Source: Stachybotrys elegans (taxonomy: Eukaryota > Ascomycota > Sordariomycetes > Hypocreales > Stachybotryaceae). From it: 64,000 nucleotides of DNA. Positions 17,112-64,000 of this stretch are shown in pieces. Location of the stretch: the NCBI GenBank assembly GCA_020746835.1, contig JAGPNK010000023.1, forward strand, positions 186,001 to 250,000. The letters run 5' to 3'. The stretch's first letter is position 1; each line of letters starts with the position of its first letter. Made by a program: the position numbers and the translations under genes. The notes under the pieces were generated by a model. It made no database searches. It was not told the DNA's origin and was given only the letters and a program-made list of their open reading frames with translations.

Positions 17112-19314
17112 CTAAATAAAATCAAGTTGTTGTAGCTTCGCAGATAGACCTCCGTGCATCATCCCATGAATATAACTTTCGCCCATCATAGTGTGCCGCC
17201 CGCCGATTTGTCTCAGTATCGTAGGCACGTTGAGCCCAGGAAGCAGAAACACGGTCATGTTCCCGAACACTGCTGTGGGTGGCCCCCAACTTGCCTCCAG
17301 CAGTCACAAAGAGATATTTCGGAACGTAAAAGGTTACAGACCACATCGTTGATGTCTCCAGTTCGCCCATACTCAGCGTGATACGCTTGGCAACCTCGAT
17401 GCATTGTTCCAGGCCTCAAGGTTTTCGTGATTACTGCCTGACTTCTGGAAGAGCTCGTCGTTTTCGATCCAGTCATCCGAGTCTATCAGACCCTCGACTT
17501 ACGGCAATTTCCCCGATAGTTGAAGCACAAGTGTATGCATTTCCAGATACTGCCTCACTTGTGATTCTCGATTAGGTAGACCGTAGAATGCGCGCAGTTT
17601 GTCGTACGGGCAATTCCCAATCCCGCAGTTTTTGCCAATATCATGCAACACAATGTCGTTTAAGATTGTGTGGGCAGTGTTTGAAAAGTGCGTAATCAGT
17701 TCTTCCTTTGTCGAGCGTCGGGGATAGCTATACTCCCAGAGGTTCATCACCAAGGTGCGCGAAAGAACCTTAAACGGGTCTTGAAGTGTGTCGGTCCAGT
17801 CACTGTAACATACGCCGCTTCCTGTTAACTTGTACATTGTCCACCACTGACGGATCTTCGAAACGATCCGTGGTACTCGTATTCGAGATAACTCGGGGAA
17901 ATAAGACATCGCGGGCAACTTGTGAAACCATCTGAAATTGTCGATTTCAAACGTTGCTACTACCTGGTGAACCCCCATGCCCGAGCAGCTCAGCACATGT
18001 GCAAGAACTCGGGGAATGGTGGGCTCGAGGCCAGCGCTGGCGGAGAATGATATAGGCCCTTGGGACAATCTTGTATAATCAGCACTCAGGTCCGGGAGGG
18101 GAGCCCTTGCATTATCGTCTTGGACTCCTTCATAGCAAGCCATCCCAGGCCTAAGAACCTTGAATCATCATATGTGCCGCCTCAATAGACATCTCTAGGT
18201 GCTTTGGAGTAATCATCAACCCCAGTTGTCCTTGGAATTCCTTGACAATTTCCAAGAAGCGTACATTTTGTCGCGAGGGGCGGAGCAGGTAGTTGTACGG
18301 AATGACTGAAACGAGTATAGAGCATCGTTTCAGGGCCCTAGCCCATCCAAGGCAGGCAACCCATCTGCTGCATCGGATCCGTTAAAGCCCGGGCTCCGGC
18401 AATAATCTGCGTCCAGGTGTACAAGGTGAGCTTTCAGAGTCAAGATGGCCTGCATGTTGGCCATGGTCAACCCACAGGGCTCTCGCAAAGATGGTATCCT
18501 TGGGTAGGTCGGCATAGTCGCCAACAGGAAGAACCTTGATCATGGTAGCGAATTGTGCCCAGGCTCCGTATCTATGGAGATCAACCATGAGCTGTGGTAA
18601 GCTTTGGGCAAAAAGAGTTTGCAATCCGTACATGTACGTGTTTCTGGAGCGCACCCACTCCTGTACAATCCAGGCCCGCTTCAAGTATCGCGTTGATATT
18701 GGCTGAAAACACCAAGCAGAAATTCTCGATCGAGTGCTCCGTCGAGGTCTGCTCGATCTGCCCAGTTGGGTAGCATGAGGCCGCGTCTTAGCAGGGAAGT
18801 GCTTTGCTTGACAAGCTGTCCTCGCTACCTATCCACATGATCGTAGCTGAGCACAGGAGTAAATGCGGTCCATTATTCGGACATGCTGATTACATTCTTG
18901 TATGTTCCTGGTTGATGCAAATGGAATCAATCTAGATAGGAAGCCACGTCAATCCAGGGAGCAGGTGCTCCAGCTGGCCACGGCTCAGGTGATTGCGAAT
19001 GGAGATCAAAGCAATATACAAGTTGGAGGTCACTGCGGCTGGTTCTCGTCGCAGTCGATTCCGAATGCTGGGCCATGCTAATCTTCCGCACTTGCGACAT
19101 TTGGACTCTCGTAAACACCCAGGGGGTCGCCCCAAGTGTGGGATAGAGACAGGTACTCTGGCTTCGCGTCGAGATCCTGCGTCGTGATGGAGCAGCGGAT
19201 GGGCTCGAATGGGTGGTCTTTTCTTCGTAAAGGATAGAGTTTTAGATAGAGTTTTATAACTCGTATCGATGACGCAGTTGGAAGCGGCTGATAGACCAAA
19301 ACCTTCCTCGGCAT
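17112..19314 (-). pseudogene. decayed HET-domain gene
   Basis: Pieces of a HET incompatibility protein lie in order on the minus strand but in different frames: the N-terminus V-Y-Q-P-L-P and the L-S-L-S-H-T-W-G-D-P motif (about 19.3-19.1 kb), I-D-S-I-C-I-N-Q-E after an in-frame stop (about 18.93 kb), M-W-I-G-S-E-D, then K-R-A-W-I-V-Q-E-W (about 18.67 kb), a long frame at 18143-17499, and the C-terminal G-E-S-Y-I-H-G-M-M segment ending at TAG 17112. At least four frame changes and one stop separate them, and introns do not account for all of these. The order is intact, so this is a whole gene that decayed in place. A second HET gene at 51.0 kb is intact. Confidence 0.72.
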
Positions 19315-19479
19315 GGGATACAAAAGTGGTTGTATGATTGGAAGGCTGCCTGATTTTACAGCTAGGCAATTGCGTCCCAGTTGTTTATACGTCCACTGGA
19401 CTAGATGGACATTAGTAGGGATCGCCACAGTGTAGTTCTTGTTACCTTTTCTGCATAGATTATTACCAGGTGCTGATGA

Positions 19480-21509
19480 ATTACTTTCATGCGTGAAATG
19501 AAAATTCTGCAGGTCCTTCAAGTTCTCTGATGTAACGCTCGGACGGATCCTTCCAAAGCCTGAGTAATGCGCGCTGGTTAATCGTAGATTCGTCTGACCA
19601 TCCTCTGGTTGCTCAAGTGCCCACACAAGGGAAGCTTCCGAACAACGACTTCGTAGGTCGGAACCCGAGTATCCAAAGGTTCTTTGCGCGAGCAGCTCGA
19701 CGTCTACAGTTGTTCGAGGTCTCTCTCGTTTAAGAAAAGCCCAAGGATTTTGGCTCGTAACTCGACGCTTGGTAAGCCGAGGTAGTATTTTGCGGCAGTC
19801 GACGCAGAAAGGCATCGTTAAGATCCATCGGACGATTTGTGGCAACCAGAACAAACGGTGTGTTGTCACTGTTTTTGGCTAGGCCATCCATTTCAGAGAC
19901 AAATTGCGTGATGGATGCTCGCTCCCAGCTCCCATCGCTGTTTGTGCGACGCCGGAACCCGGAATCGGCCTCGTTGATAAAGATGACACAGGGAGAGAGC
20001 TTTCTCGCCAACGTGAATGCTGCTTGAATCAACTTCTCGCTGTCTTCGACCCAACTTGATGTGAGGGCACACAAGCATCTTGATCGTTTCCTTAGAATCG
20101 TCGTCGAGGATGACGTCGCCATATGTTACCGTGAGCTCGTCTGCATTAGTTAGTCATACCCTGGTTGGGTAGCCAGAAGAGTTACCTGGATTGGCGAGCT
20201 TTGAGAGTAGCGTGTCCTCGTATTCGTTGGTGTTGTTCTGGACCTGTTTAATCTTTTCTACCCAAGGGCTTGTGGAGGACTCGTCTTGTAGTCGCTTGAT
20301 CCGTGCCACGACGGTGCTGACATCTTCAAAGTTGATGTAGGGGTAGAGACAGGCCCGACCGACTGATTCACAGCCTGCAATAATTCATCTACAGCCCAGA
20401 TCGACTCGTTCAAAAGTCCTCCCACATCTCCGTCGCCCAACGCACCGAGCAGTCGTGCCAGACCATCGGGGTTTCCCGGCAGCAATCTTGCACGAAGCAA
20501 ATATTTCAGTCTTCGGACATTGGTTGTGAACGGTTCAGTATTATCATTTTCATCTCTTTTGTAGGTGGGACGAACTAAAAAGATCTCGGCTGGGTTTAGT
20601 TTGAGCTTGCGACGAATCCTGCCTCCATTTCAGGAGCGGTTCTGGTACATGTCTTTTTCGCAGCAGCTTGGCGACTTGTGCTGAGATGTGTCGAGCGTGA
20701 CAACGATACGCGTCTTGGTTCCGGCTTCACGAAGTCGGATGGCGGCATCTCTGAGCCTGCCCCAAATTCTTGCATGTTGGCGGCTGTCCATGTCGTCGTA
20801 GATTTTGTCGGCAAATGTATGGTGTAAATGTATGAGAACTCTCGTCGCCGATCGCGAGGCCGTTGAACGTTGAAGGGTTTGTCGAGATGGGGGCCAATAG
20901 TGAGTCGTAGACAGCCTTGTTGCGGTCACGAGGTCCGTCTGATACTCTTTTGTTGCTCCTGACTCCGAAATACTGAAGAAGCGGTCCTAGGATGACACTC
21001 GGATGGGGTTTTGGATGCTTCGAGTCGTGCGCCCAAACACGTTGCCTCTCTCTATCTATCTGCAGAAACGCGGAGGCGATGGCTTTCATGGTGACCATGT
21101 CAAGAGAGATTGTATGAGCGCCAATCTCTTTGGAGACATTCAGCACAAGACCCCTGAAGAAGGCGGAAGCATCTTTGCAGTTGGACCGAAACAAGACAGC
21201 TAGCTTTATTTCCGGACTCGGATTGCGCATCAGAAGCGACAGGACAGAATCTCTCGCACTCTCGTAAGTATCTCTTGAAAGCGCAAAGCTAGGGCTGAAG
21301 CCTTTCTGGTTCGGTGATTGGGTCGCGGACTGGTCATCTTTTTGCTGGCCCTTGGGAGAATAGCAGTACTCAACTAGCTTGAGCGAGTGAGCAGAAAGAG
21401 GAAGAGCATCATATAGATGAACATTAGTTTTCAAGAACCAGTCTGGAAGCTGGTAACCAGACCAGCTCTGCTCTGGTTTGGCCATTTCTTGGCTGTTGCT
21501 TGGGGCCAT
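19480..21509 (-). pseudogene. relic of an AAA+ ATPase gene lacking Walker A
   Basis: Resembles fungal mitochondrial/ATAD1-like AAA proteins. The N-terminal region (21509-20727) begins with ATG. Further pieces follow in shifted frames (H-H-T-F-A-D-K-I-Y-D-D-M, then R-R-L-K-Y-L-L-R-A). The ATPase core reads S-S-W-V-E-D-S-E-K-L-I-Q-A-A-F-T-L-A-R, Walker-B-like C-V-I-F-I-N-E-A-D-S (Asn where Asp is normal), then V-A-T-N-R-P-M-D-L-N-D and the sensor-2 block G-Y-S-G-S-D-L. Between G-D-V-I-L-D-D-D-S-K-E-T-I-K and the Walker B segment, where G-P-P-G-T-G-K-T should lie, sequence for roughly 80 residues is missing. The last AAA piece shares an open frame with the HET N-terminus downstream. Confidence 0.7.
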
Positions 21510-21609
21510 ATTGCCGTCGGATACTCTAGTCGAAAGGCCGCCAGACTATGTACGAGGCATGGATTTATACTTCAGTCTGCTGTGGCTGTGCAATTACTGA
21601 TCACTCCAA

Positions 21610-21727
21610 TCGAATTTTCTAACCAATTATTATCTATTGATTTGATATCGTCTTTATCATCAGAGGGGGCCTCCTCGAAGTCACGGGTCTGTATCCCATT
21701 CGGGCACACGAACGGGAAATCCCACAT
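21610..21727 (+). repeat. dispersed repeat A, copy 1
   Basis: Nearly identical over about 115 bp to 60250-60368, sharing TTATCATCAGAGGGGGCC and CACACGAACGGGAAATCCCA. Weaker copies lie at 22505-22590, 35160-35197 and 53684-53796. Read on the minus strand both good copies stay open with D-F-P-F-V-C-P-N-G-I-Q-T and S-I-D-N-N-W-L-E-N, so this may derive from a coding segment of a mobile element. No terminal repeats were recognised. Confidence 0.7.
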
Positions 21728-22280
21728 TACTGATCACTCGTTTCGGTATCACATGTGCTTCTTTCTAACCGTTGTGGCAGTCCAACTGCAGCCCCGCCCA
21801 GTTATACCGCATCTTCTCTTCCATCACAGGGTCCAACCCACAAGCGAAAGGGTGGCAAAGTGTAGGGCATACGGGCAAGGCGTTGTTGGCTAAGCCTCAG
21901 CAGAGGCAAATGGTGGCGATAGCCTGGCTTTACACATGAGGATAGGCTGGTAACCTGACAATGACTGTCTACGCAATCTATAGCTGGTCAAATACCCTTC
22001 CGAGCCTGTAGAACAGAATTTCTTTATCACAATAAAGCCCTTTATAACAGCTGTACTATCGTGAGCCCAGTCTTAGGACTTCCGCCGGCATCCCAACCTC
22101 GGCACATCACTTTCGACAACAGAACTTCAACCAGCCTCATCAGAACACACGAAAGGACCAGAGAATAGGCCAACAGTACATGTGCCGATCAAATTAATAG
22201 CAAGTCCCGACTGCATACGCTTGTACATAGTTGCGGCCGCTGCTCCATTTTGTTCTCTGGCCCAGCCAATGGGTAATTCT

Positions 22281-24147: not shown

Positions 24148-25283
24148 CTATTTACTAACAAACCACTTGGGATAATAAAGAATGTTAGCAGCCTTCTCCG
24201 ATGAGGCCTCTGTATCGCCTTCTGCAGGTAGGGCAGCAGCTCCAGCGGCGAACCACTTGGGGTAGTACTCAAATCTTGCATGATCTCCCGTAGCATTGAG
24301 CGCAGAGGCAGCTTCAGGACCTGTAAACCATTTGGGGTAGTACTCGAGCTTCGCAGTGTCGATATTTCCATCTGGACCCGCGAACCACTTGGGATAGTAC
24401 TGCACCATTGCAGCCTCACCGTCGGGACCATCGAACCACTTGGGAACGTATTCGAACTTGGCGGCCTCCCCAGAGTTGGGGGCAGCTTTGGCGTCGGGGC
24501 TTGCGAACCACTTGGGATAGTAGTTGAATTGGGCCGGCGCGTCGACGGCAGCCTCGGGCTCAACCTTCCCAGAATGCTTCTCCGAGGCTAAAGCGGTAGG
24601 ATCTTCGGGAGAGAGCCACTTGGGGTAGTAGCTGACCATTGCGGTATTGCCATCGAACCACTTTGGATAATATTCGACCTTGGCGGTGGCCCCTTCGCCA
24701 GAGGCGACATGCTGGTCGGCGAACCAGGTCGGGACGTATTCGAGCCTGGCGCTATCGCCCTGTGTGGCATCGGCGGAAAGAGGAGCGGGAGTACCGCCGG
24801 TGGCTTTCAGAGCTTCGAAACGAGCTTTCAGAGCTTGACCCTCAGGCCTTTCCATCTGTAGCAGCATGTTAGCTAAGCTGAACCCTTTGGGAGCGAACAA
24901 AGGCAAAATACATACGCTGTAGCGCTCGAGATAGGTGGTCCCATCGACGCAGCAACGAAGCTCATGGGCATGAAAAACCCGAGGGGTAGGATTCTTGATA
25001 TAGTCGATCACGAATTGAACGTCATGAGCACCCAGAGCGAGTGCCGTGCCGACGGAATCGTCGAGGCCAGTGAGCTTTCCACAGGTATGGCACACGTATT
25101 GGGGGCTATGGAGGTAATGTTGCTTCATATTGAACGTCTTGAAATCCATCTTGAGCAGAGCAGAGAGGCGATCCGTCTCAGCATCGTCAATGGGCCAGAC
25201 GTAGATCTTCTTAGTAGTTTCGCTGCAGCAAGATTTAGTACAAGTGACGATCGGAGATCGAATGGAGCATACTTTGAGGCCAT
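24148..25283 (-). CDS. unknown protein with nine YYPKWF repeats
   Basis: Three exons join in phase: an 11-nt first exon (25283-25273), 25222-24916 and 24855-24148, giving 341 residues. Introns are 50 and 60 nt with GTATGC/GTATGT donors, TACTAA and CTAAC branch sites and CAG acceptors. The N-terminal part (about residues 1-105) starts M-A-S-N-E-T-T-K-K-I-Y-V-W-P-I-D-D, holds C-H-T-C-G-K and a later H-A-H-E-L-R-C-C that could bind a metal, and has no signal peptide. After a short charged linker, nine units of consensus A-x-[LVFI]-x-Y-[YV]-P-[KT]-W-[FL] are separated by 14-36 residues of Gly/Ala/Pro/Asp/Glu-rich spacer; the last unit is three residues from the C-terminus. No dibasic Kex2 sites separate the copies. 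I do not recognise the family. It could be a peptide precursor or a multivalent short-motif scaffold. Confidence 0.85.
24160..24738 (-). repeat. nine coding repeats of the YYPKWF motif
   Basis: The six-codon cores lie at 24738-24721 (Y-V-P-T-W-F), 24672-24655, 24630-24613 (ends W-L), 24522-24505, 24450-24433 (Y-V-P-K-W-F), 24399-24382, 24342-24325, 24267-24250 and 24177-24160. Tyr, Pro, Lys and Phe codons vary synonymously between copies, for example TAT-TAT-CCA-AAG against TAC-TAC-CCC-AAA. The spacers differ in length and sequence. Confidence 0.92.
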
Positions 25284-25367: not shown

Positions 25368-25378
25368 CTTTATATAAT
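25368..25378 (-). promoter_or_regulatory. candidate TATA box for the YYPKWF gene
   Basis: Read on the minus strand the sequence is ATTATATAAAG, about 90 bp upstream of the ATG at 25283, a usual distance in filamentous fungi. This is inferred from position and sequence only. Confidence 0.45.
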
Positions 25379-27953: not shown

Positions 27954-29659
27954 ATGTTCCTGTCAACGCCAAGTTTTAAGGAATGGCTTGCCATATTCTT
28001 TGTGTCCGGCCCTATTATGGTTCGTGCAGCGCGTGCCCCCCTAAGCCTTTCCACTAATGGATCAGTTTCTTCTGAAAGCTACCTATAATCTATATTTCCA
28101 CCCTTTGGCTCACATACCTGGACCATTCTGGGCTCGTGCCAGTGGTTTTCCGTCTTACTGGCAGGCAAAAATCGGGAAACGGCACATTTGGCTATGGCAG
28201 CAGTTTCAGATATACGGTGACAGAATCCGCGTTTCTCCCGACGTGGTCTTGTTCTGTGATCCCGACGCATACCTGGACATCTTTTCAGTCAGGGCGAATG
28301 TCCGCAAAAGCGATTTCTACACGGCCTTTGTACAAAGTGGAAAAGTACCGAGCACTCTCGGCACTGTTGATGTTGCCGAGCACGCGGCAAAGCGAAAGCT
28401 CTTGAGCATGGCCTTCACAGAGAAATCCCTCCGGGCGTCCGCCTCTTTCATCAGCAACCACATTGATCGCTGGAATGAGTTGATGCTCGAGGAGAATCCC
28501 GACACTGTCGAGTGGTCCAAGTCCTTTGATCTTTCAGAGCGCTTGGACCAATTGACTGTTGATATCATGGGCGACCTCAGTTTTGGGAAGTCATTCAACA
28601 TCAAAGAGCCGGGAGACAACCCACTGAAGACAGTTCCCCGCCTGATTGCCGGGTTTTTGAGATTCTACTATCCTGTAGGCCTCCATCTTATCTCCACGTC
28701 AGCATTGCTAACTTTAGAAGCTCTGTCGTTCCCCATTCCTGCCTGTCTTACTGTGGCTGAGAAAGCAGGGACTCATCAAAGCCTTGGAGTCGAGCGCTCC
28801 GCCAACTGTTCAACAGTACCGCAAATTTGTGCGTAGTAGTATCGCTGACCGCATTGCTTTACACAAGGAGCAACAAGAAAAGCCTGAAGCGAAACGACGT
28901 CAGGATATATTCTACTTCCTTTGTGAAAGCCGCGATCCAGACACCGGCGAAGTGGCCTTTAACGAAGAAGCGCTGCTTTCGGAATCAACTCTGCTGATTA
29001 TTGCTGGCACCGACACCACAGCTATCAGCTTGTCTGGAATCTGGTTTTACTTGACAGGAGACCCGCGACGCTGCCAGAAGCTGGTGGATGAGATTCGGAG
29101 CACCTTCAATACACCGGAGGATATTGTGTACGATCAAAAACTGCTGTCCTGCGTGTACCTCAGGGCCTGCATTGACGAGGGCATGCGAATGACGCCGACT
29201 GGACCCTGTGAGCTTCCGCGACAAGTACTTCCAGGCGGCCAAAGAGTCCTCGGAGAGTTCTACCCCCCGGGAACCATTCTAGGTGTTGTGCCGTGGTGCA
29301 TGTCATTTAGCGAAAGCATCTATGAGGACGCCACCGTCTTCCGGCCCGAGCGATGGATCGTGGACGAGGCCAACGGTGTGACGAAAGAGTCAGTGGACCG
29401 ATTAAAGGCCAACTTCCACCCCTTCCTCTCAGGAGTGGGCAGCTGTCTAGGCAAGAATATTGCAATGGCAGAAATGATGCTGACCGTGGCTCGGACTCTC
29501 CATCGACTGGATATTCGACGGACGCCAGGATCCACGCTGGGCTGCGGCGGTCCTGAACAAGGGTGGGGAGCACGCAACAAGAAGCAGTATCAGTTGGTTG
29601 ATGCTTACGTCTCCCTCCGACAAGGGCCAGAGGTGCAGTTTCGGAAACGGGCGGCATGA
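27954..29659 (+). CDS. cytochrome P450 monooxygenase
   Basis: ER-anchored haem monooxygenase, 538 residues from three exons (27954-28019, 28066-28674, 28718-29659) with 46- and 43-nt introns. Exon 1 encodes the membrane anchor (M-F-L-S-T-P-S-F-K-E-W-L-A-I-F-F). Next come the Pro-rich hinge H-I-P-G-P-F-W-A, the I-helix A-G-T-D-T-T, the ExxR motif D-E-G-M-R, and F-R-P-E-R-W. The haem loop is F-L-S-G-V-G-S-C-L-G-K: the Cys ligand is present but the usual Arg two residues before it is Gly. The pattern resembles fungal benzoate-hydroxylase/Tri11-like clans used in secondary metabolism. It is the first plus-strand gene of the tailoring block and lies next to the PKS relic. Confidence 0.87.
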
Positions 29660-31128: not shown

Positions 31129-31763
31129 GACTAAGTATTGTGAGCGGTATTGAAACACGATCGCAAGGTTGTGAGCACACCGAGGTTTTATGTCGTAATG
31201 AAAGTCGAGAATTACTGCCGGAGATGAGCTGCCCGCATCGTCAAGAACCATTGCCTTCGCGGGAGCGCTTATAAGAGCTTCTCAGGTCTCCTACATGCAC
31301 CAGAAGGCCCACTGGATCCAGTATTGTCGAATTCACGACGCAGGCACTACGCTGAATCGGACATCGTGGTTTTGCTCTCGTCTCATACTACTAGGTTGGC
31401 GGTGGATAATACTTTGACCGTCGCGTGAATTGCCCAGCCGTTCCAACCGACCCACCAAACAATGCGCTATCAAGCACTAATTCGGTGTTGGGCCGCCACC
31501 GTGGAGAATCGATATGTCGCGCCAGGTGTTATCTCGGCCCCGACAACTATTCCATTCGCAATCTGCCACAGGACAGACCCCAGCTGCCGCTCAGGCAAAG
31601 ACGCCTTCTGCATATCCTTCGTAACGCCTCCTGGTGCGCTCAGCCAGAGCGCCCGCATTGCGCGACCCTTCCCCGCCCCGCTCACTTCCGACACGGCTTG
31701 ACACCAAGGCCGGCCCGGCACCGGATTCCGCCGTCTAGGCGTCTGGCCTTTGCGGCTTCCTTG
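31129..31763. other. bidirectional promoter region, SDR and regulator
   Basis: About 635 bp between the divergent starts of the SDR and the zinc-cluster regulator. A plus-strand frame runs open into the regulator from 31425, but it shows no homology and the ATG at 31764 sits directly before the first zinc cluster. Confidence 0.45.
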
Positions 31764-33465
31764 ATGGGCCGCAAGCGGATTGCGTGTAAGGTTTGCGCCG
31801 CGGTCAAGACCCTTTGCAGCAAAGGACGGCCTTGTATGCGATGCAAGAGATTGTCGCTGGTGTGCTCCTACGGCGAGGACGACCCGTCTGCCCTGGCTTC
31901 GGCCGATGTCGCTCGGAGACTACCCAAGACGGGACATACCCGGTCCAAGGCGGGATGCTTGAGCTGTCGGCGGAGGCGCAAGAAGTGCGACGAGCAATTG
32001 CCCGTCTGCGGAGACTGCCAGCGCCTCCGTCTGGAGTGTTGCCCTCCAAGCATCGGCATCGGCATTGGGGCGGAGCAGGTTGCACATGCACCCGAGACAC
32101 TGGCTTTGTCAGATCCGGAAGCCGGCAGCAATGCCATCGCCGTCACCGTATCCCAGCTCAGGGAGGATGCATCGCCGGAGTGGGCCTCGGCCGTGGCCGA
32201 CGTCTTCGAAGATCACATCCTGTCAACCCAATTTGTTGACTGGATCGCCCTGATTGAGAATGAGCACAAATACCGCCGCAACGAGCTGGCCAACCTCGCC
32301 AACAGCGCTGCCTTGGTCGACCTCCCCATTCCGTGCGCGAGCGACGACGAGGCTGGTCGCGCTACGTTCCTACCACCTACCGCTCTGAACAATCTGACAG
32401 GCATCACGCCGTTCTCGCTCAAGGATTGGTCGTTTGGCCAGAGACACCTTCTCAACCACTTTATGCAGTCCGTCTCCAGGGCTCTGGTCGTTGTTCCAGA
32501 CGAGGAGAACCCTTTCCTCCGATACGTAGTCCCCATGGTCATCGAGAACACCATGGTTCGTCATGCCCTACTCGCCTTGTCCGCTTGCCATCTCGCCAGA
32601 ATCTATCCAGTGTTCAGGCAAGATCTCTTACTTCACCGAAGCCTCGCCATGCAAGCCCTGCGGAGCGACCTCGTCTATCCTGACTCCCCAGAAGGAGGGC
32701 TGGTAACAACTCTGCTTTTGTGTTTAACTGAGGTATGGGCCTCTTAAAGTTACAAGACAGTACGGGACTAGTGATGTTCAGATTTGCGAGGGCGACTCCA
32801 GAACTTGGGCTCTGCACCTGTTTGGCGCCAAGGCCCTGCTGGATGACATTGACGCACACTCGTTAGGCGAGCAGCCTCTCCAGTCCATGGTTGAACTGTA
32901 CAATTACCTATGTTGTGTGACAAGCGCAACATCAGACGACGTGCCTCCAGTGCTGGAGAATATCCTCTCGGACGATGCCGCCATTCACCCCTTGTTCAGT
33001 GCTGCTGCCCGCCTTTACGGAATTCTCCCCACTATCAGCCAGCTCGGAAAGGACGTTGCCCTCAGCTTGAGCCCTACTCAAGACCTGCAGCTGCGAGCCC
33101 AAGACGTCGAACTCACAATACAGAGCTGGGCCCCGCTAGAAGAGACAGGAAGCAGCAGGTACCTGGTTAAAATAAGAGCTGCGGCCTTTGCCACACAGTG
33201 GGCTCTCATCCTTCGACTAAGCCAGATTACAAAAAAGCTGCCAAATAGTGATCTAAAGATCACAAAGGCTACGAACAACATCCTGTCAGCGATTTCACTA
33301 ATACGGCCAGGATCGGAGGTTGAGGCGCATATCCTCTTCCCCTTGTTCATGGCAGGGGTCGGCAGCGTGACGAAACCGAACCGCCTGAGCGTAGAGTACA
33401 GATTGAAAATCGTGGAGACCACCGTTGGCTTTGAACGTATCAGTTGTACACAGCCTGCTGGATGA
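31764..33465 (+). CDS. transcription factor with two tandem Zn2Cys6 clusters
   Basis: Nuclear DNA-binding regulator of about 550 residues, exons 31764-32732 and 32782-33465 (49-nt intron). Two zinc clusters lie back to back. The first, C-K-V-C-x6-C-x5-C-x2-C-x6-C, is at about residues 8-35. The second, C-L-S-C-R-R-R-R-K-K-C-D-E..., is canonical with six cysteines and follows after about 35 residues. The middle and C-terminal region (H-A-L-L-A-L-S-A-C-H-L; I-L-F-P-L-F-M-A-G) matches the fungal transcription-factor domain of the PF11951 type. The expected family ending (L-L-D-E-L-W-R-R-S-N-E-G-E, then V-D-W-E-D-L) is present only in the next frame from about 33430 to TGA 33550, so a frameshift (or base error) near 33432 probably removes the last 35 or so residues. 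It probably regulates the adjoining block. Confidence 0.83.
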
Positions 33466-33899: not shown

Positions 33900-34958
33900 A
33901 TGGCTCCTGGTGCACTGTTGCACGAAACCCCCGCGGCGCCAGCTTCCAAGGCAACGGTAGCAGCACCCACAGAGAACATCTGCACGATTCCATCACGATT
34001 CCCCAACCTGATCAGCACTGAGTTCCAAGACTTCAGAGCAGAACTGGCTGAGAATGGTTTCGCCATAATCAAGGGTGCGATACCTCGCGAACGGGCCATC
34101 CAGTACCAAGAGAAAGCGTACGAGTGGATCAAATCATTCCCCGGCGACCTCGACATGAATAATCCGGACACATGGGTCGAGAAGAACCTGCCCATCACTA
34201 ACAGCATCAAGGCATACGCCTATTACTGCGTTAGCCACGAAAAGTTCTTCTGGGACGCAAGACAAGAACCAGGAGTCCTTGGCGCCTTTGCCAAGCTCTG
34301 GGGCACCGACGAGCTGCTCGTGAGCTTCGATGCAATGAACTTGACCTTCCCGAACCGCAAGGACGTGCCCCGCAGACCCCCGTGGGAGCATATTGACCAA
34401 AGCCCAATGCGCCGGGTCGTCCACTGCATCCAAGGCCTCATGGCCCTGTCGCCTTCGGGCCCGAAGGACGGCGGTCTGGTCGTCTTCCCCGGCTCTCACA
34501 AGCTTAACGAAGAGTTCTTCGACACGCAGACGGACAAGAAGTCCTGGCAGCCCATGAAGGACGTGCACGTCTTCACGCGCGCCGAGCTGGACTGGTTCGC
34601 GGCCCGTGGCGTGCATCCGCACAAGGTCTGTCTCGAGGTCGGCGACATGGTCATGTGGGACGGCCGCACCATCCACTACCGTAGCGAGCCCACGGAGAAG
34701 AGCAACCAGATCAGGACGGCGCTGTATGCCACCTACGTCCCTGCCAGCCTGGCGAGTGCTGATCAGCTGAAGCTGAAGAAGCAGGCATTCGAATCGTACA
34801 GCGGCACCACGCATGGGCCGCACCAGTATATTGTCGTCCGGCCAAATGGTGTCTGCCTCCCAGACGGCACTCCTGATCCCCGGAGCCGAGAGGCGTCGTT
34901 GGAGAGCCCGGAAATGACGGACAAGCTTCTGAAGCTAGCAGGCGTGATTCCGTATTGA
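33900..34958 (+). CDS. phytanoyl-CoA-dioxygenase-family Fe(II)/2OG oxygenase
   Basis: Intronless 352-residue non-haem iron, 2-oxoglutarate-dependent oxygenase of the PhyH fold, probably cytosolic. The iron triad appears as H-x-D in W-E-H-I-D-Q-S-P (near residue 163) and the distal His in G-R-T-I-H-Y-R-S-E-P (near 260); the Arg in N-Q-I-R-T-A-L-Y, about ten residues on, would hold 2-oxoglutarate. The double-stranded beta-helix core spans about residues 150-290. The tail after A-L-Y-A-T-Y-V-P is longer than in primary metabolic PhyH enzymes. Family members often hydroxylate or rearrange secondary metabolites, which fits the neighbours. Substrate unknown. Confidence 0.86.
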   Translation: MAPGALLHETPAAPASKATVAAPTENICTIPSRFPNLISTEFQDFRAELAENGFAIIKGAIPRERAIQYQEKAYEWIKSFPGDLDMNNPDTWVEKNLPITNSIKAYAYYCVSHEKFFWDARQEPGVLGAFAKLWGTDELLVSFDAMNLTFPNRKDVPRRPPWEHIDQSPMRRVVHCIQGLMALSPSGPKDGGLVVFPGSHKLNEEFFDTQTDKKSWQPMKDVHVFTRAELDWFAARGVHPHKVCLEVGDMVMWDGRTIHYRSEPTEKSNQIRTALYATYVPASLASADQLKLKKQAFESYSGTTHGPHQYIVVRPNGVCLPDGTPDPRSREASLESPEMTDKLLKLAGVIPY

Positions 34959-35459: not shown

Positions 35460-37109
35460 ATGGCCACCATGGAGCGAACAACCATTGCGGGCGGCATCGA
35501 GATCCCGCGCATGATCAATGGGCTCTGGCAGCTCGCTGATATGGATGTCGACATTCCAAGCACCGCAAAGGCAATGGAAGCTCTGTAAGTAATCCCCGTC
35601 ATGAGTAATACAGCACGACGGTAACTCATTTTGATTGTGATGATTAGGATCGCATCAGGACTATCATGCTTTGACATGGCAGACCATTACGGAGATGCAG
35701 AGCTGGTGATTGGGGAATACAACGGCATCAAGTCAGCTAGCCCTGAAATGGTGGCTTTCACCAAGTGGTGTCCGGAAGAAGACGGCAACACAACATTTGA
35801 GCATGCCGAGGCGGCTGTGGACTTGGCGCTGTCCCGCATGAAGCAGAAGAGCCTTGCCCTGATGCAGTACCACATTTGGGACTACACGGACGATACGTAT
35901 CTCAAGAACCTAGCCCATCTGCAGAAGATGCAAGATCAAGGCAAGATCCGCGCTATTGGACTGACCAACACGGACGCGGCTCATCTGGAGCTATTGAACC
36001 ACTCGGGATACCGCATCGCCACCAACCAGGTCAGCTGCTCTGTCATCGACCGGCGGCTGGTCAGGGGACGGCTGAGCACAGTGTGCGCGGAGCACGACAT
36101 CGGCATTCTTGCTTACGGGACGCTGCTGGGCGGCTATCTCAGCGAGAAGTGGGTAGGCGCACCTGAGCCCACGGACGAGTCGACGCTGAACTGGAGTCTT
36201 CGCAAGTACCTCCGCTTCATCCGCGCGGCTGGAGGCTGGGGGCCATTCCAGACCGTCTTGCGCGCCCTCGCGGCCGTGGCCAAGAAACACAGTGTATCTA
36301 TCCCTGCTGTCGCCACGCGCTGGGTCCTCGACATCCCCGTCGTCAAGGCCGTCATCGTTGGCAGCCGGCTCACGGCCGCCTCTGATAAATACAAAGCCAG
36401 TAACCTGAGCGCCTTCTCTTTCAAGCTGGACCAGGAGGACGTGAGCCTCATTTCCCAGGCACAGGAAGCACTGTGCGATATCCCCGGCGACAGCGGCGAC
36501 GAGTACCGCCGAGCGCCATTCCTCACCGCGTCAGGGGATCTAAGCCATCACATCCACGGGTCAGAGGATCGGATCAAAGCCATAGGAGAGGCTGTTGCCC
36601 AAGGCTCCCGAGTTGAGTACCACACGGGAAGCAAGTGGGAACCCATAGCAGTGAGTCGCCGTTCCTCTACGGCAGCCTTGTAAGCCCAAAGGTGTTCTAG
36701 ATTCTGACGGTTTTGACAGGGGTACTGCCGAGCCGTTAGGGTTGGTAAAGTAATCCGAGTATCGGGAACAACAGCAAACCCTCCTCCTGAGCTCGCCGAC
36801 AGCATATCTGCCATTGGCGGCAAGTCAGCACGCTGCCAGACCACAGCCATCTTAGACATCATTGCCCGGTCAGTCAAGGCGCTAGGCGGCACCACGCGTG
36901 ATATTGTGAGAACTAGGATCATGATTCGCAACGAGGAGGACTGCGCCGAGGTCAGCGGGGCCCATGGATGGGTCTTTGGTTGCGAGAAAGTTGGACCGTC
37001 CAATACGCTGGTTACCGCGAGTCCAATTGGTGACGCCTTCCTTGTCGAGATCGAGGCCGAGGCTGTAGTCGGGAGCAGCAGTAGACCCATTGTCGTCGTT
37101 TCACAGTGA
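35460..37109 (+). CDS. aldo-keto reductase fused to a RidA/YjgF domain
   Basis: A 505-residue two-domain protein from exons 35460-35584, 35648-36650 and 36720-37109. Residues 1 to about 365 form an NAD(P)H aldo-keto reductase: catalytic Asp and Tyr in F-D-M-A-D-H-Y-G-D-A-E, Lys in F-T-K-W-C-P, His in Q-Y-H-I-W-D, and cofactor region G-S-R-L-T. The third exon adds about 130 residues with the RidA (reactive intermediate deaminase) fold: R-V-S-G-T-T-A-N-P, then V-R-T-R-I-M-I-R and D-A-F-L-V-E-I-E-A-E-A-V. The domain boundary is near the last intron. The Arg that RidA enzymes use for imine deamination (P-x-R-x-x-V) aligns with Asn in P-S-N-T-L-V. The in-phase intron and continuous homology support a true fusion. 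I infer reduction of an unstable carbonyl or imine intermediate. Confidence 0.86.
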
Positions 37110-37539: not shown

Positions 37540-39316
37540 ATGGCTTCAGCTGCCAATCGCGTCCTGATCCGCCAATGGCTTCCAAAGTCATCGGCAACAA
37601 CGGCCGTTATGGTGATCGCCGCAGCATGTGTGACCTCGACGACTAAGGGCTACGATGGGTCCATGATGTAAGTCGACGTGACCGCTTCGTCTCGCCCAGC
37701 GAGCTCTTATGCCCGTCGTTCTGGATACTGATATAATGTCGCCACAGGAACTCGCCCAATGCGTTGCCCAGCTACAGCGAGTACTTCGTGCTGACTACGG
37801 CCACCAAGGCCCTAAACACATGCGCCATCTGGCTTGGCGGCATCGTGTCCGCCGTCGTAGCCGGACCAATCGCCAACCGCTACGGTCGGCGCAGGTCGCT
37901 GCGTTGGGCCTCGCTCTTCACCATTTTCGGAGCCATTCTCCAGGCCGCCGCCCAGAACGTGCCCATGTGGGTTGTGTCTCGCATGTTCATCGGCTTCGGC
38001 ACCACTTTCTCCATGTGCGCTGGCACAGCCTATACCGCCGAGACATTACCTGTCAAGTGGCGCGGCTGGGGCGTTGGCCTCCTGGGCGATTTGTACTATG
38101 TGGGTGGCTTCCTCGCTGCCGGCATCACCTACGGCACCTCCCGTATGGACTCAACCTGGGCGTGGAGAGTGCCTTCGGCGCTGCAGGCCTTCTTCAGCAT
38201 CACCGCCTTGGGCTTCCTCTTCGTCGTTCCCGAGTCCCCACGATGGCTCGTCAAGCAGGATAGGAACGAGGAGGCGCTCCAGGTCATCGCGCTGATGAAC
38301 TCAGATGGAGACTGCTCGCATCCCGACACCATCGCCGCCTACCAGGAGATCTTGGATGCTATGGATTTCGAGCGCGCCGAGGGACGGCAGTTCCGCACGC
38401 AGCAGATCGTCAAGACCCGCGACCTCCGCATGCGAATAATCCTCGTCGCGTCGGCTTCTGTCTGTGCCATGCTGTCGGGTAACAATGTCGTCAGCTTCTA
38501 CCTGGGTGACATATTGACCAACGCCGGCATCAGTGATTCCAACACGCAGCTTGAAATTGTACGTATAGCTCCCTTAACCTCTTCTTCTTCCCTCGCATTT
38601 TTAAGGGGATGGAAGCCTTTTGAGCTGCCCTACTAATGATTCTCTTTCTTCTCTCGCAGACAATCGTCCTGAACGCTTGGTGTCTCGTCGTGTCTATCAT
38701 TGGCACGAGGCTATTGGACCAGTTTGGCCGCAAGACAATCGCAATCATCAGCAACTCTGGCATGGTCGTCCTCCTCTTCGTCGTTGGTGCATTGACAGCT
38801 GGTAAGCTCAACCCTATAAATCATACCCCCTCTGAGTTTGCCCTGGTTGCTGACATGTGGCTCAAACAGTCTATGGCACGTCCGAGAACCTTTCCGGCAT
38901 CTATGGCACCGTCGCCAGCATCTTCTTGTTCCAGGGCATCTACAGCCTGGCTTGGACCCCTCTAATCATGCTCTACCCCCCGAGGTGATGAACTACAATA
39001 TGCGCGTCTTCGGAGTTGGTCTCATGGAGCTTCTCGGCAACTGCTTCGGCCTCCTGATAGTTTTCGCGTTCCCCTTCGCCTTCGCCGCCATTGGCTGGAA
39101 GTTCTACATGATCAATGGCGCATGGAACGTTCTCGAGGTGGCATTCGTTGCATACTACTGGATTGAGACCAAAGGTCTCAGCTTTGAGCAGATTGATGAC
39201 AAGTTCCTCAGCATCTACGGAAAAACACCCACCTTGGAGGGCTTGGAGGGGACGAGAAGACTGGTGTTACTTCAAAGGTCCACCACATCACGGAGACCGC
39301 CTCCGAAAAGCAGTAA
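37540..39316 (+). CDS. MFS sugar-porter-type transporter with two apparent frameshifts
   Basis: Twelve-helix major facilitator of the sugar-porter family, plasma membrane. Exons 37540-37667, 37748-38558, 38660-38801 and 38870 onward. Signatures: G-Y-D-G-S-M-M in helix 1, R-Y-G-R-R-R between helices 2 and 3, V-P-E-S-P-R-W-L after helix 6, L-D-Q-F-G-R-K in loop 8-9, and W-I-E-T-K-G-L-S-F-E-Q after helix 12. In exon 4 the frame breaks in a run of six C at 38976-38981; seven would restore Y-P-P-E-V-M-N-Y-N. It breaks again at a four-G run near 39250, where five would give the tail ending T-A-S-E-K-Q at TAA 39316. Two one-base losses in homopolymers suggest assembly error or very recent loss. Otherwise the protein is full length. 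Confidence 0.72.
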
Positions 39317-41050: not shown

Positions 41051-42827
41051 ATGACTCTTGTCACGTCTATTGCAGTCGCTGCACCTGGCGTACTGGTAGC
41101 AGCGTTGATGATAAGCAGTTGCCTTCAGCTACTCAAGAACTATGCTGCTGCTCGATCCATGGGCGTCCCAATTCGCATCGTCCCAATCAGTCCGCTTAAC
41201 CCTTTCTGGGCACTCGTTGATCGACGAGTGCTTGGCTTCATCAGGCGGCGGATGCCTTTTAGCAACAACAGCTTTACCAAGTACAACTGGCGCGGGTGGG
41301 AGGTTGCGGACAGGTACGAATCGCATCAAGAAATGGGGGACATTTGGGTCTTGGTTACGCCTTTCAAAAATTGGGTATACGTCAACGACCCCAACGCCCT
41401 ATTGTCGCTTTTCAAGCGAGGAACTGAATTCCCCCGACCAGTCTTTATCACGGGTAAATATATGACAGCGAGACGTGACTCCGATTAACTTTAAATAGAG
41501 GTTCTGAATGTCTTTGGGCCCAATATCTCCACAGTAAGCAATGATGGGTTCGGCTGTTACCAACCAAAGCTGATGTTTACTTCAGGCGGAAGGTGCAAGG
41601 TGGAAAACACAACGCAGAATCGCCACGCATTGCTTTAATGAGCAGAATAACGAGATCGTCTGGGCTGAGTCCACCCGCTTAGCAAGCGATATGCTCAAAT
41701 ACTGGACTAGCAGGCCATCCATTGCTTCATCAGCAGAAGATTTACGCACTCTTTCGCTGCTTGTCCTCTCAAGAGCAGGGTTCGGAAAATCGTTCGACTT
41801 TAAAGGGCACGAAGAGCAGGCCAGTTCAAATCCTTCTAGCAATTACAAAGAGTCATTGCAGACAGTCCTAGAGAACCTGGTACTTATTCTCGGTTTTGGT
41901 ACCAAGTTTCTCTCTAACCCATGGCTCCCACGAAAATTTCGACTTGTCCATGAGGCATGTGCCGCATTCCAGACATATATGACAAACCTTTATGAAGAGG
42001 AGAAAAAGGCCTATAAAGAGGGTAAACTCACAGACAACAACTTGATGTCGCTACTCATTCATGCATCTCAGCAAGACTCTGAAGAGTCGGGAAGCGGTAG
42101 TCCTGGTGGATTGACAGAGAGCGAGATCTATGGCAACATGTTTGCCTTCAATTTCGCCGGACACGACACAACCTCTCACACTTTTACTTTTGCTTTGTAC
42201 TTTCTCGCGTCGAATCCAGATATCCAGGACTGGATCTCAGAAGAGGTGTGCCATGTTGTAGGGGGGAAGCAGCCTCACGAGTGGGACTACCGCCAAGTTT
42301 TCCCGCGCCTCAAAAGATGTCTTGCCGTTCTATACGAGACTCTTCGGTTATATACAGTGGTGCCTCCAATCAAGTGGACCGCTAATGAATCCCAAGAGCT
42401 CGTCGTCGGCGGAAAGACAATTCTTCTACCCCCCAACTCTATGATTGCCCCAAGCTATGGGTCAGTTCAAACTGACCCTAGATTCTGGGGGCCCGACTCC
42501 CTTACATGGAAACCATCACGATGGATCAAGTCGAATGCACCTGGTCTGGAAAATGAAGAGTTTGACCTGCACACGCGTGGTGCCTTTGTCAGTTGGTCTA
42601 TGGGAGCACGCGATTGCCCAGGAAAAAAGCTCTCCCAGGTTGAGTTCGTGGCAACTATGGCCACCCTCTTCCGGGACTGGAGGGTCACGCCAGAGAGAAA
42701 GAAGGGCGAAAATCTCGATGCAGCATGCAAAAGAGTCCTTAACCTCATTGAGGCCGACTCTGGGTATGTCCTTCTCTTGCAAATGTTGCACCCGGAAAAG
42801 GCACCTCTGGTTTGGACACAGAAGTAG
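41051..42827 (+). CDS. cytochrome P450 monooxygenase
   Basis: ER-anchored P450 of 559 residues from exons 41051-41453, 41499-41533 (35 nt) and 41586-42827. The start M-T-L-V-T-S-I-A-V-A-A-P-G-V-L opens the membrane anchor. Motifs: W-K-T-Q-R-R in helix C, I-helix N-F-A-G-H-D-T-T-S-H, ExxR in Y-E-T-L-R-L-Y, W-K-P-S-R-W in the PERF position, and a complete haem loop F-V-S-W-S-M-G-A-R-D-C-P-G-K-K with both Arg and Cys. This clan is frequent in fungal terpenoid and polyketide clusters. All catalytic signatures are intact, unlike the P450 at 28 kb. Substrate unknown. Confidence 0.88.
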
Positions 42828-59640: not shown

Positions 59641-60249
59641 AGAGGAAGCCTATAGCTGTATCAAGAAGCTCCCACCGCACTGAGAATCTTTACTTGCAAG
59701 TAGCCCGGACAGTTCGATGAGCGACCCGAGAGATGCAAGCGCTGTGGCGCGCCGTGTGCTTACGGCTTTAGCAGGTCGGGAGAGACTATCCATGTCAACA
59801 TTCACGATCGCCATCACGGTCAGGTACCGCGTTGCCCGTCTTGGTCGCGTCCACATGCTCACACCAATACCAATTGACTCCCATCGATCTGTTGCAGCTT
59901 GCAAAATTTCAGCAACGGACCGCCTCATCGCTAGATACTTGAGCCGCACTGCCTTGGTCGGGAAGACTATTATGGGTATTCGATGTGAGTGGCGTTGAAT
60001 CGTTGAAGAATGAGGCACTGACAAATAACCGACTGCCAGTACGTGGTTTTGATGCATGCGGTGTTGCCTGTCACCCACCTCCACGACCATTTTTGCTTTG
60101 ATATCTGTAATTTCTCGCAGACTATCATTGTCCAATATTATAAAGCACTCTTATGTCTGATCGCACAGGTCATCAAAGCATACAATGCTATGACCCATGT
60201 GCTGCCAATAGTTCTCTGGCATTCGAGCTGTATAACAACTTCCTATACA

Positions 60250-60368
60250 ATCGAGTTTTCTAACCAATTGTTATCTATTGATCTGATATTGTCTTTATCA
60301 TCAGAGGGGGCCTCCTCGAAGTCACTGGTCTGTATCCCATTGGGGCACACGAACGGGAAATCCCACAT
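60250..60368 (+). repeat. dispersed repeat A, copy 2
   Basis: Best partner of the copy at 21610-21727, same orientation, with about a dozen differences over 115 bp. It lies directly against the broken end of the MFS gene at about 60400. Confidence 0.72.
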
Positions 60369-61500: not shown

Positions 61501-62440
61501 TCATGCATATCTATGACTCAGGCGGTTCGCGTGCAATTCTTCTACACTCTCCACTATCTCCAACACACCGGCAAACTCGAGCTCCGCCATGGTCTCGTCC
61601 CACAGTCGCGACCTGAAATCTTTACCTTCGGATGAGTACCAAAAGGGGGGATATCTGTCACCGTCGGCATTCAAGCCAACCATGAGAGGAGGAGGTCTCA
61701 CGGTTTGATAGTCCAGTCGCACACAAACGAGCCGTGGCTGTCTGTACCCTGTGCGAGTACCGCATCTACATACGTACTGGCAGCCACATGTACTGATCGC
61801 GACAGTAGAGCCTGCTCCATACGCGCCTGGAGAGAGGATGGCCATGATTATTCGCGGGAAAATGCCGTTTGGCCTGTCATGCCCGGGTTTGCGACGTGGA
61901 TTATGACATGCTCGGGAGATATATACTCGGCGAGCTTAGACACGAACATGATTTGCAGCAGCTTGGTTCTCTTGTACCAGGGGAATCTTGCAAATAGTTC
62001 GGGCTTTTGAAAGTGTGCAAAATGGGACTTTTAGACTCAATCGTCGTGTGGTAGGAAAGGTCAGAGCCAATGACGCTCAGTACAGGTGTTGCTCCCGCAA
62101 TCTTCTTGGCCTTGAGGATGGGAAGAAGCAACACAGCCAGGAGCATTGTTGAGAGGTAATTTACTTGCAGCGTCGGCTCGTTTTGTGTTTCTGGAGAGAC
62201 GGTGAATTCGCTTTTTATGAGACCAGCGTTGAGCATTATCAAATCGATGCGTTCCAGTCCTGCGCATTTCGCTGCAATGGCACGAACCGATGTGTACAGA
62301 GCCATATCAACGACCCAGACTGCTATCGAGGCGCTAGGGAACTCCTTTCGCAGCTTCCCGGCGGCTTCCTCTCCGCTGGACTGACAGCGGACGCCCATTA
62401 TAAGGTGCCCAAGGCCGATTGCCATTACATAGAATCTACA
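61501..62440 (-). pseudogene. truncated and frameshifted short-chain dehydrogenase
   Basis: The minus-strand frame from 62425 encodes an SDR of the retinol-dehydrogenase-like fungal type: D-L-I-M-L-N-A-G with V-N-Y-L-S-T-M-L-L, V-L-S-V-I-G-S-D. Homology continues in a second frame (V-A-N-P-G-M-T-G-Q-T-A around 61880) and a third (F-W-Y-S-S-E-G-K-D-F-R-S-R-L-W) to a stop at 61501. The glycine-rich cofactor loop that should precede is absent; sequence turns into the AT-rich block at about 62450, so the 5' end has been lost. Introns may account for part, not all, of the frame changes. Confidence 0.65.
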
Positions 62441-62449
62441 TCCAGAGCT

Positions 62450-64000
62450 TTACCCTCTAACCAATAGGATAAGCAAGGTAAGTTTTACTACTTTAAGCTT
62501 AATCATTAGGATAAGCTAGATAAGGTAAGGATAAAAATAGAGAGATCTACTAAATAATCTATATATCCTTATTATTATATTTATTATCTTAATATATCTT
62601 TCTTAAAGAACTTATCTATAAGTTTACTTTTAATTCTATATCTATTAGTATTTTTAAACTATTTTTTAAAATATAATTTCTATTTCTCTTTTTTATATAA
62701 ATGATTATAATTAATATTAATAGTATATATTCTATTTTAAGGCAAGAGTTATAAGGATAATATATCTTAGAGCTAAATTAAATAGCTACTAAATATACTA
62801 TATCTATTTATAGCTAAACCTTTAATTAATTTAAAGCTAGACACTTTTATAGCTAGAGCCCTCTATAGCTAAAGCTCTTTATAACTAGAATTTATTATTA
62901 TATAATATAGTTTAATTAAGGGATTTAATTATAAAACTTCTAAATATATAGCTATATTTATCTAGGGCTTAATTTATTATTAAACTATATATTAATAGCT
63001 AGATTTATTATTAAATAATATAGTTTAGTTTAGAAGTTCTATTAGAGAACCTTTAAATATATAGCTATATTTATTTAAGGCTGGATTTATTATTAAATAG
63101 CCTATTAATAAAGACTAATTTATTATTATATAGTATAATCTACCTTAGCTAAAGTAGCTAATAGTAAATTTAAACTATACTTAAGTATTTAAAATAGTAT
63201 AATAACTTTCTCTTATAATTAAAAAAGGGCTATATTTATAATAGTATTATTTAAATTACTTTAAAAAGTTAGTTAAAATACTAAAATATTTAATTTAAAG
63301 AATTAGCTTTATAAAGTATATAGATAGATAAAAGTATAAAAGAATATTAGAAAAAACTATATATATAGCCTTTTTATTTAAATCCCTTAGGTTTTTTATA
63401 TTAATAAAAGAAGGCTATAACTCTAACTATTATTCTAAAGAGTAAGTTTAAATAGTAAACTATTTTTATTCTATTTTAAAATATAGAAAATAGCTAATTA
63501 AACTTATTCTTTAGAAATATATAAAGAATAATAATAAGCTTATACTATAGATAGTAAAGTCTATAATACCTATTATTAAAAGACTAAAAATAATAATTTA
63601 AAATTTAAGCTAATATATATAATATAGAGTTAAGCTATAAGTTTACTTAATACTTAGTTTTACTAAATAAATCTTAAATTACTTTAAAACTATTTATATA
63701 AAGTAATTATAACTCTTCTCTTTTAGAATATATTAAGTTAGTATCTTTTTTATTTTATTCTATCTCTCTTTTCTTAACTATCCCTAAAATAAATATAATA
63801 ATTTAGTATTTCTATTCTTTATTTTCTAACCTTTTAGCCCTTAAAACTTTCCTTTTATATACCTTATAGTTACTATTCTATCTATATCTATTACTTTCTA
63901 AATAACTATTTAATTCTTTTTTATATTAATCTATTAATATACTATTTTTAAAACCCTAATTTACCTTATTAAATATACCCTTTTATAGCTTTTTTCTATT
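62450..64000. other. extremely AT-rich gene-free block, RIP-like
   Basis: About 1.5 kb made almost only of A and T with isolated AG/CT pairs. CpG is nearly absent, and CpA/TpG dinucleotides are very rare while TpA is abundant: the signature of repeat-induced point mutation of former repeat DNA. No open frame of note. It runs off the window edge. Confidence 0.8.
62885..63115 (+). repeat. imperfect tandem repeat inside the AT-rich block
   Basis: Two units offset by about 113 bp share AAATATATAGCTATATTTAT (62942 and 63055) and flanking TTTATTATTAAA and AATATAGTTTA strings. Possibly part of a mutated element. Confidence 0.6.

Follow-up and report, generated by a model that had tools for sequence, protein, structure and literature searches.

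One gene of Stachybotrys elegans encodes a protein in which a short aromatic peptide, in most copies YYPKWF, recurs nine times, and the question raised by this locus is whether the copies are the cores of an unrecognised ribosomal peptide precursor or the motifs of a multivalent protein. The gene lies in what we call the window, the whole 64-kb stretch of DNA that was analysed (C16:186001-250000, in an S. elegans assembly of 43.4 Mb and 61 contigs). We put at about 0.5 the probability that its product is a multivalent motif protein, cytosolic or at any rate not secreted, belonging to a small fungal family that moves horizontally. The gene is on the minus strand and consists of three exons, with a spliced product of 341 aa; its features are as follows.

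25369-25376, minus strand: TATA-box match TATATAAA, 93 nt upstream of the ATG, a consensus match only
25273-25283, minus strand: exon 1, 11 nt, ATGGCCTCAAA
25223-25272, minus strand: intron 1, 50 nt, GTATGC...GCAG, with a TACTAA-like branch sequence by eye
24916-25222, minus strand: exon 2, coding for the N-terminal Cys/His domain
24856-24915, minus strand: intron 2, 60 nt, GTATGT...ACAG
24148-24855, minus strand: exon 3, coding for the acidic repeat region
24160-24750, minus strand: nine ten-residue units (residues 142-338), A-x-[LVFI]-x-Y-[YV]-P-[KT]-W-[FL]

The very short first exon was assigned from its splice sites and from the spliced protein, which matches the deposited S. elegans protein B0I35DRAFT_484494 (P0001) exactly over all 341 aa. 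An independent gene model therefore agrees with ours, and the intact three-exon gene (window 24148-25283) proposed in the earlier note was confirmed by this identity and by the splice signals. The TATA-box match was the only one found when the 500 bp upstream of the gene were scanned with TATA[AT]A[AT][AG]. A whole-protein search of the S. elegans assembly gave no second copy. At the DNA level the pattern Y-x-P-[KR]-W-F occurred at 13 places in the genome, seven of them in the repeat gene itself, and the remaining six equalled the count of the reversed control (6), so that paralogues and stray motifs were both discarded.

Residues 126-341 of the protein are acidic (pI 4.7), and the six-residue cores within them start at residues 146, 168, 182, 218, 242, 259, 278, 303 and 333. 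Six of the nine read YYPKWF, and one each reads YYPKWL, YVPKWF and YVPTWF. When the protein was shuffled 20,000 times from residue 109 onward, no strict core was obtained and loose cores never exceeded one per shuffle, which rules out a chance origin. The nine units described previously were thus borne out by position as well as by shuffling. The spacing of 14-36 residues given with them was correct as a start-to-start distance but not as a linker length, the linkers measuring 4-26 residues.

The codons of the units were then compared among the S. elegans copies. Among 207 cases in which a residue is common to two units, its codon was also common in 108 (0.52), and the codon use of the gene predicts 0.51. 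For the six-residue cores, pS was 0.78 and pN 0.09 (pN/pS 0.11), and for the ten-residue units pN/pS was 0.24. Because codon sharing is only at the codon-use expectation and the core pN/pS is as low as 0.11, each unit is old, and its protein sequence has been maintained by selection copy by copy. A recent slippage array was ruled out, since the codon differences between units are at the maximum that the gene's codon use permits.

In homologue searches of 5.8 billion proteins, no more than eight entries from seven species came up, S. elegans included; the others were from Lophium mytilinum, Cercophora sp. LCS_1, Fusarium oxysporum (two entries), F. denticulatum, F. nygamai and F. pseudoanthophilum. 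The same eight were returned by a whole-protein search (E up to 1, 6638 candidates) and by a search with residues 1-125 (E up to 10, 118 candidates), both of which reach homologues of about 0.55-1.75 times the query length that share 5-residue words. As the protein database is clustered at 90% identity, some of the eight entries represent several sequences. No other Stachybotrys was among them, though S. chartarum IBT 40288 (P0077) is in the searched database. All eight carry the precomputed Pfam accession PF26731.1, which makes the repeat protein a member of PF26731 by the database's own annotation. Two of the homologues are called 'RNA binding protein' by their source, a name for which we saw no basis. 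No mention of YYPKWF, YPKWF, YPVRWF or PF26731 was found in a literature search whose coverage is thin for subscription journals. A bacterial or viral origin was also considered and rejected, no relative being found by tblastn in genome_contigs and viral_contigs with two peptide patterns each under a coarse filter.

The eight proteins have 9, 9, 10, 9, 11, 9, 11 and 9 units. Their 77 cores fall into two main types, YYPKWF (47) and YPVRWF (14). In the middle of the F. denticulatum and F. pseudoanthophilum proteins, four YPVRWF units follow one another at a regular 16-residue step, and F. nygamai has two; judged from their arrangement, these mid-protein units look like a later expansion in Fusarium. 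The copy number in homologues thus varies from 9 to 11 with the cores kept, which was one of the checks proposed at the outset.

To compare units with spacers, seven of the proteins were aligned, the second F. oxysporum entry (P0008) being left out. When every one of the nine S. elegans units was included, invariant columns numbered 42 of 54 in the cores, 24 of 36 before the cores and, ungapped, 59 of 118 in the spacers, and mean pairwise identity was 0.910 for the cores, 0.852 for the four pre-core residues and 0.725 for the spacers. Without the middle of the alignment, which is rich in indels and spans columns 216-321 with units 4 and 5 (YPVRWF in the orthologues), these identities rose to 0.959, 0.896 and 0.753, with 36/42, 21/28 and 59/109 columns invariant; the N-terminal part stood at 0.949 in the same comparison. 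Across the seven proteins the Tyr and the Trp were invariant in all nine units, the final Phe and the leading Ala in eight each and the hydrophobic residue in seven, and the two residues after the Tyr varied in three (YP, VP or PV). The family consensus of the unit can be written [TA]-A-x-[FVLI]-x-Y-x-x-[KRT]-W-F. The residues following the core Phe (positions +6 to +8) were variable.

The N-terminal part was close to invariant throughout, 109 of 124 ungapped columns being identical (alignment columns 1-125, seven proteins). It contains C48xxC51, H70, H88xH90 and C94C95, and all seven of these Cys and His residues were invariant in 7/7 sequences (S. elegans and P0002-P0007). From the spacing of these residues, the first ~105 residues are probably metal-binding. 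In the omitted entry, P0008 (F. oxysporum ACJA88_013265), 21 residues that include H88, H90, C94 and C95 are absent at residues 86-87. The stretch absent from that gene model ends exactly at the exon 2 boundary, and S. elegans has a GTTTTT donor candidate at this place; the gap may thus come from the splice model, through use of another donor or through a faulty prediction. The domain matched no known one above cut-off in searches of NCBIfam, PDB sequences and a Pfam library without the PF26731 model, nor in PHROGs and PADLOC, and residues 1-122 had no Pfam match up to E 10. The matches below cut-off were Ig_TMEM132 (Pfam, whole protein, E 0.31), NF009146 (E 0.16), two in PHROGs (E 0.15 and 0.79) and acetyl-CoA synthetase (E 0.25 and 0.76).

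These results can be brought together in the following way. The first ~105 residues would fold into a compact Cys/His domain with hardly any variation, and the remainder would be an acidic and largely disordered tail on which a single ten-residue docking peptide is presented 9-11 times. All copies would fit one and the same groove, belonging either to a partner or to the N-terminal domain of the protein itself, and in this way one chain could gather many partner molecules or condense. Tail disorder is suggested by composition; an AlphaFold2 model of the full-length protein had low pLDDT throughout, the N-terminal domain included (mean 30.4, all but two residues below 50). A docking motif shown many times is usually marked by fixed anchors, free positions between them and drifting spacers. 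Here the anchors are fixed, the positions between them are free and the spacers drift (cores 0.910 against spacers 0.725), and for this reason multivalent display is favoured. This alternative had been raised in the earlier note and fits what was found, as the units are conserved in orthologues, their number varies and the acidic spacers evolve faster. The peroxisomal receptor PEX5, with W-x-x-x-[F/Y] repeats in the tail of a multi-motif adaptor, offers a likeness: an aromatic short motif present in several copies along a disordered stretch that is joined to a folded domain, both stretch and domain being putative in our protein. PEX5 differs in motif sequence, in the order of tail and domain and in distribution, and no search suggested homology. 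Equal cores under strong selection are, however, also expected of a repeated-core precursor.

According to that alternative, which we regard as unlikely, the protein is a ribosomal peptide precursor of a new class, in which the N-terminal domain serves as leader or modifying enzyme and YYPKWF or YPVRWF units are excised and perhaps cross-linked (Tyr-Trp). It agrees with near-identical cores of two main types in variable number, and with the aromatic, cross-linkable residues in them. The dikaritin precursors (those of ustiloxin, phomopsin and asperipin) resemble it in that a single fungal protein carries numerous short, almost identical cores with spacers between them, and the highly repeated core by which dikaritin and Kex2-processed proteins are recognised is present with nine units. 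In PMC7329392, Kex2-processed repeat proteins are mined through an ER signal peptide together with repeats separated by Kex2 sites. The S. elegans protein has no hydrophobic leader, the best 19-residue window among starts at residues 1-40 having a mean hydropathy of 0.03, and its single dibasic pair is KK8-9, with none in the repeat region. The other seven homologues have at most one further KK, which in both F. oxysporum entries lies in the tail. The absence of a signal peptide and of Kex2 sites, pointed out earlier, was upheld by these scans and would make the protein a non-secreted one. UstYa (DUF3328, PF11807) matched 28 places in the S. elegans genome and none on contig C16, so that the lack of a UstYa-type protein noted for the window extends to the whole contig. 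Unlike the dikaritin and Kex2-processed precursors, therefore, the protein lacks a hydrophobic leader, Kex2 sites between its cores and a UstYa gene on its contig, and it possesses a large near-invariant N-terminal domain. A fixed cut site was not seen either, because the residues at +6 to +8 vary, and the pre-core residues are constrained as well.

Precursors of other kinds were compared with the protein too. In borosins, an N-methyltransferase domain is fused to the core; the repeat protein has no methyltransferase domain above the Pfam cut-off. BURP-domain peptide cyclases show that a Cys/His domain and aromatic core peptides can share one protein. To our knowledge they are confined to plants. 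Pfam gave no BURP match in the repeat protein, and these cyclases are at most a functional parallel. The borosin class is named in PMC9233826.

A further point in favour of a precursor is the surroundings of the gene, as genes for a P450, an SDR, a PhyH-like enzyme and an AKR lie 2.8-10.3 kb away. The recognisable neighbours are listed below.

19078-20122, minus strand: AAA ATPase pieces in two ORFs, the core and a lid match below cut-off, with a HET-like stretch (SHTWGDP, by eye) behind them
27345-26343, minus strand: polyketide synthase (PKS) pieces, acyl transferase 29.0 bits (below the cut-off of 32.7) and dehydratase 27.3 (just above the cut-off of 27)
28057-29659: P450, intron 28675-28717, 519 aa model
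31251-30407: SDR
31425-32747: zinc-cluster regulator
33900-34958: PhyH/Gig2-like enzyme
35631-36683: aldo-keto reductase (AKR)
37764-38636: sugar-type MFS transporter
41691-42827: second P450
50914-51852: HET-domain ORF, ~26 kb from the repeat gene

The block of tailoring genes that had been placed 3 kb from the gene is indeed near, the distance from the ATG to the first P450 ORF being 2.8 kb when measured. The PKS pieces between the repeat gene and the nearest P450 look like a broken polyketide synthase, to judge from their domain matches. If the repeat gene supplied the precursor of this cluster, an enzyme of the cluster should accompany it in some of the other carriers. The nearest P450 (28057-29659) had its best other relative in Talaromyces (64%), and Lophium, Fusarium and Cercophora were not named among the best 120 of its 743 matches, seven of those 120 being without an organism name and the scored set being the 8000 candidates that shared most words. 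Co-occurrence of a P450 with the homologues, another check proposed earlier, was consequently not seen for this one enzyme, and a link with the neighbouring cluster is weakened. With leader, Kex2 spacing and UstYa on the contig all missing, the positive support left to the precursor comes from the repeats.

The distribution of the family bears on how it spread. Lophium belongs to the Dothideomycetes and S. elegans to the Hypocreales within the Sordariomycetes; Fusarium is also in the Hypocreales and Cercophora in the Sordariales. With the indel-rich middle left out, the spacers of S. elegans and Lophium were identical at 95 of 109 positions (87.2%), those of S. elegans and Cercophora at 91 of 109 (83.5%) and those of Lophium and Cercophora at 96 of 114 (84.2%). 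Against the four Fusarium species of its own order, S. elegans reached only 61.5-67.9%, and F. oxysporum reached 81.6-83.3% against the three other Fusarium species. In its spacers, the cross-class pair of S. elegans and Lophium thus matches the closeness seen within one genus and exceeds that of same-order pairs, which speaks for horizontal transfer. The tree likewise placed S. elegans and Lophium on one branch (support only 84/87). Judged from these sequences, the gene has probably been passed horizontally between fungi.

Two matches to DUF3435, which we take to be the Starship-captain family, were found on C16, at 92981-94246 (minus strand, 116 kb away) and 273702-275238 (plus strand, 62 kb away). 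Both read away, and both hold in-frame stops in a six-frame search that ignores introns; genome-wide, 41 stretches of S. elegans matched this family. A telomere-capped mini-chromosome was rejected, there being no telomere repeat on C16 among the matches listed, which run in contig order to C35.

A gene that spreads in this way could be a selfish or conflict gene, such as a killer, an incompatibility factor or a self-assembling signalling protein whose units drive self-assembly. The patchy cross-class distribution with spacer identity comparable to that within a genus, the different copy numbers of close species, the single gene in the S. elegans genome and the A-x-hydrophobic-x-Y pattern, which by eye is strand-like, are all compatible with it. 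The spacers, however, are acidic and probably soluble, no partner antidote gene was recognised, and no match was obtained above the Pfam cut-off or in PADLOC, a library of anti-phage systems; we consider this explanation rather improbable.

Vertical inheritance of an ordinary conserved orphan protein, with extreme conservation, many losses and no transfer, appears very unlikely. The N-terminal part is indeed strongly constrained, and when S. elegans was grouped with Fusarium in one clade, the AU test fell just short of rejecting that tree at 0.05 (p-AU 0.055). What stands against it is that even spacer identity is as high as 83.5-87.2% within the trio of Lophium, Cercophora and S. elegans and far lower between S. 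elegans and Fusarium, and that no other Stachybotrys matched.

It is highly improbable that the protein is a self-contained peptide factory of a new, horizontally moving class, in which a metal-binding Cys/His domain forms Tyr-Trp cross-links in the protein's own nine to eleven YYPKWF/YPVRWF cores in the cytosol and a host protease then releases these cores, so that a signal peptide, Kex2 processing and additional tailoring enzymes would all be dispensable.

Elsewhere in the window, a dispersed repeat of ~121 bp was seen at 21607-21727 and 60248-60368, and again at C16:160504-160599. It has at least 42 matches in the genome (40 of 626 first-look candidates were scored), most of them with 93-97% identity. 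The copy at 21607-21727 is flanked by a 14-bp direct repeat, ATTACTGATCACTC, at 21593-21606 and 21726-21739, which by eye is like the target-site duplication of a SINE-type retroposon. Rfam gave no match within the window. An abrupt AT-rich block (GC 0.12-0.34 per kb) covers positions 62001-64000 of the window and C16:250001-260000 and 268001-272000, and the last 2 kb of the window have a RIP-like dinucleotide signature (TA/AT 1.37, (CA+TG)/(AC+GT) 0.55).

What is new about this protein, for which multivalent display is favoured here, is that its N-terminal domain is nearly frozen, that its units are old and that its gene has probably crossed between classes. The locus also illustrates that repeated short cores with tailoring genes nearby are insufficient alone as a sign of a peptide toxin. 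The conserved ten-residue motif provides a direct handle, as a bait peptide, for finding any binding partner. A nearly frozen domain joined to a many-copy motif, present in seven species and apparently moved across classes, hints at a function that is portable and can operate in hosts of different descent, and genes of such a portable kind are selfish or else useful.
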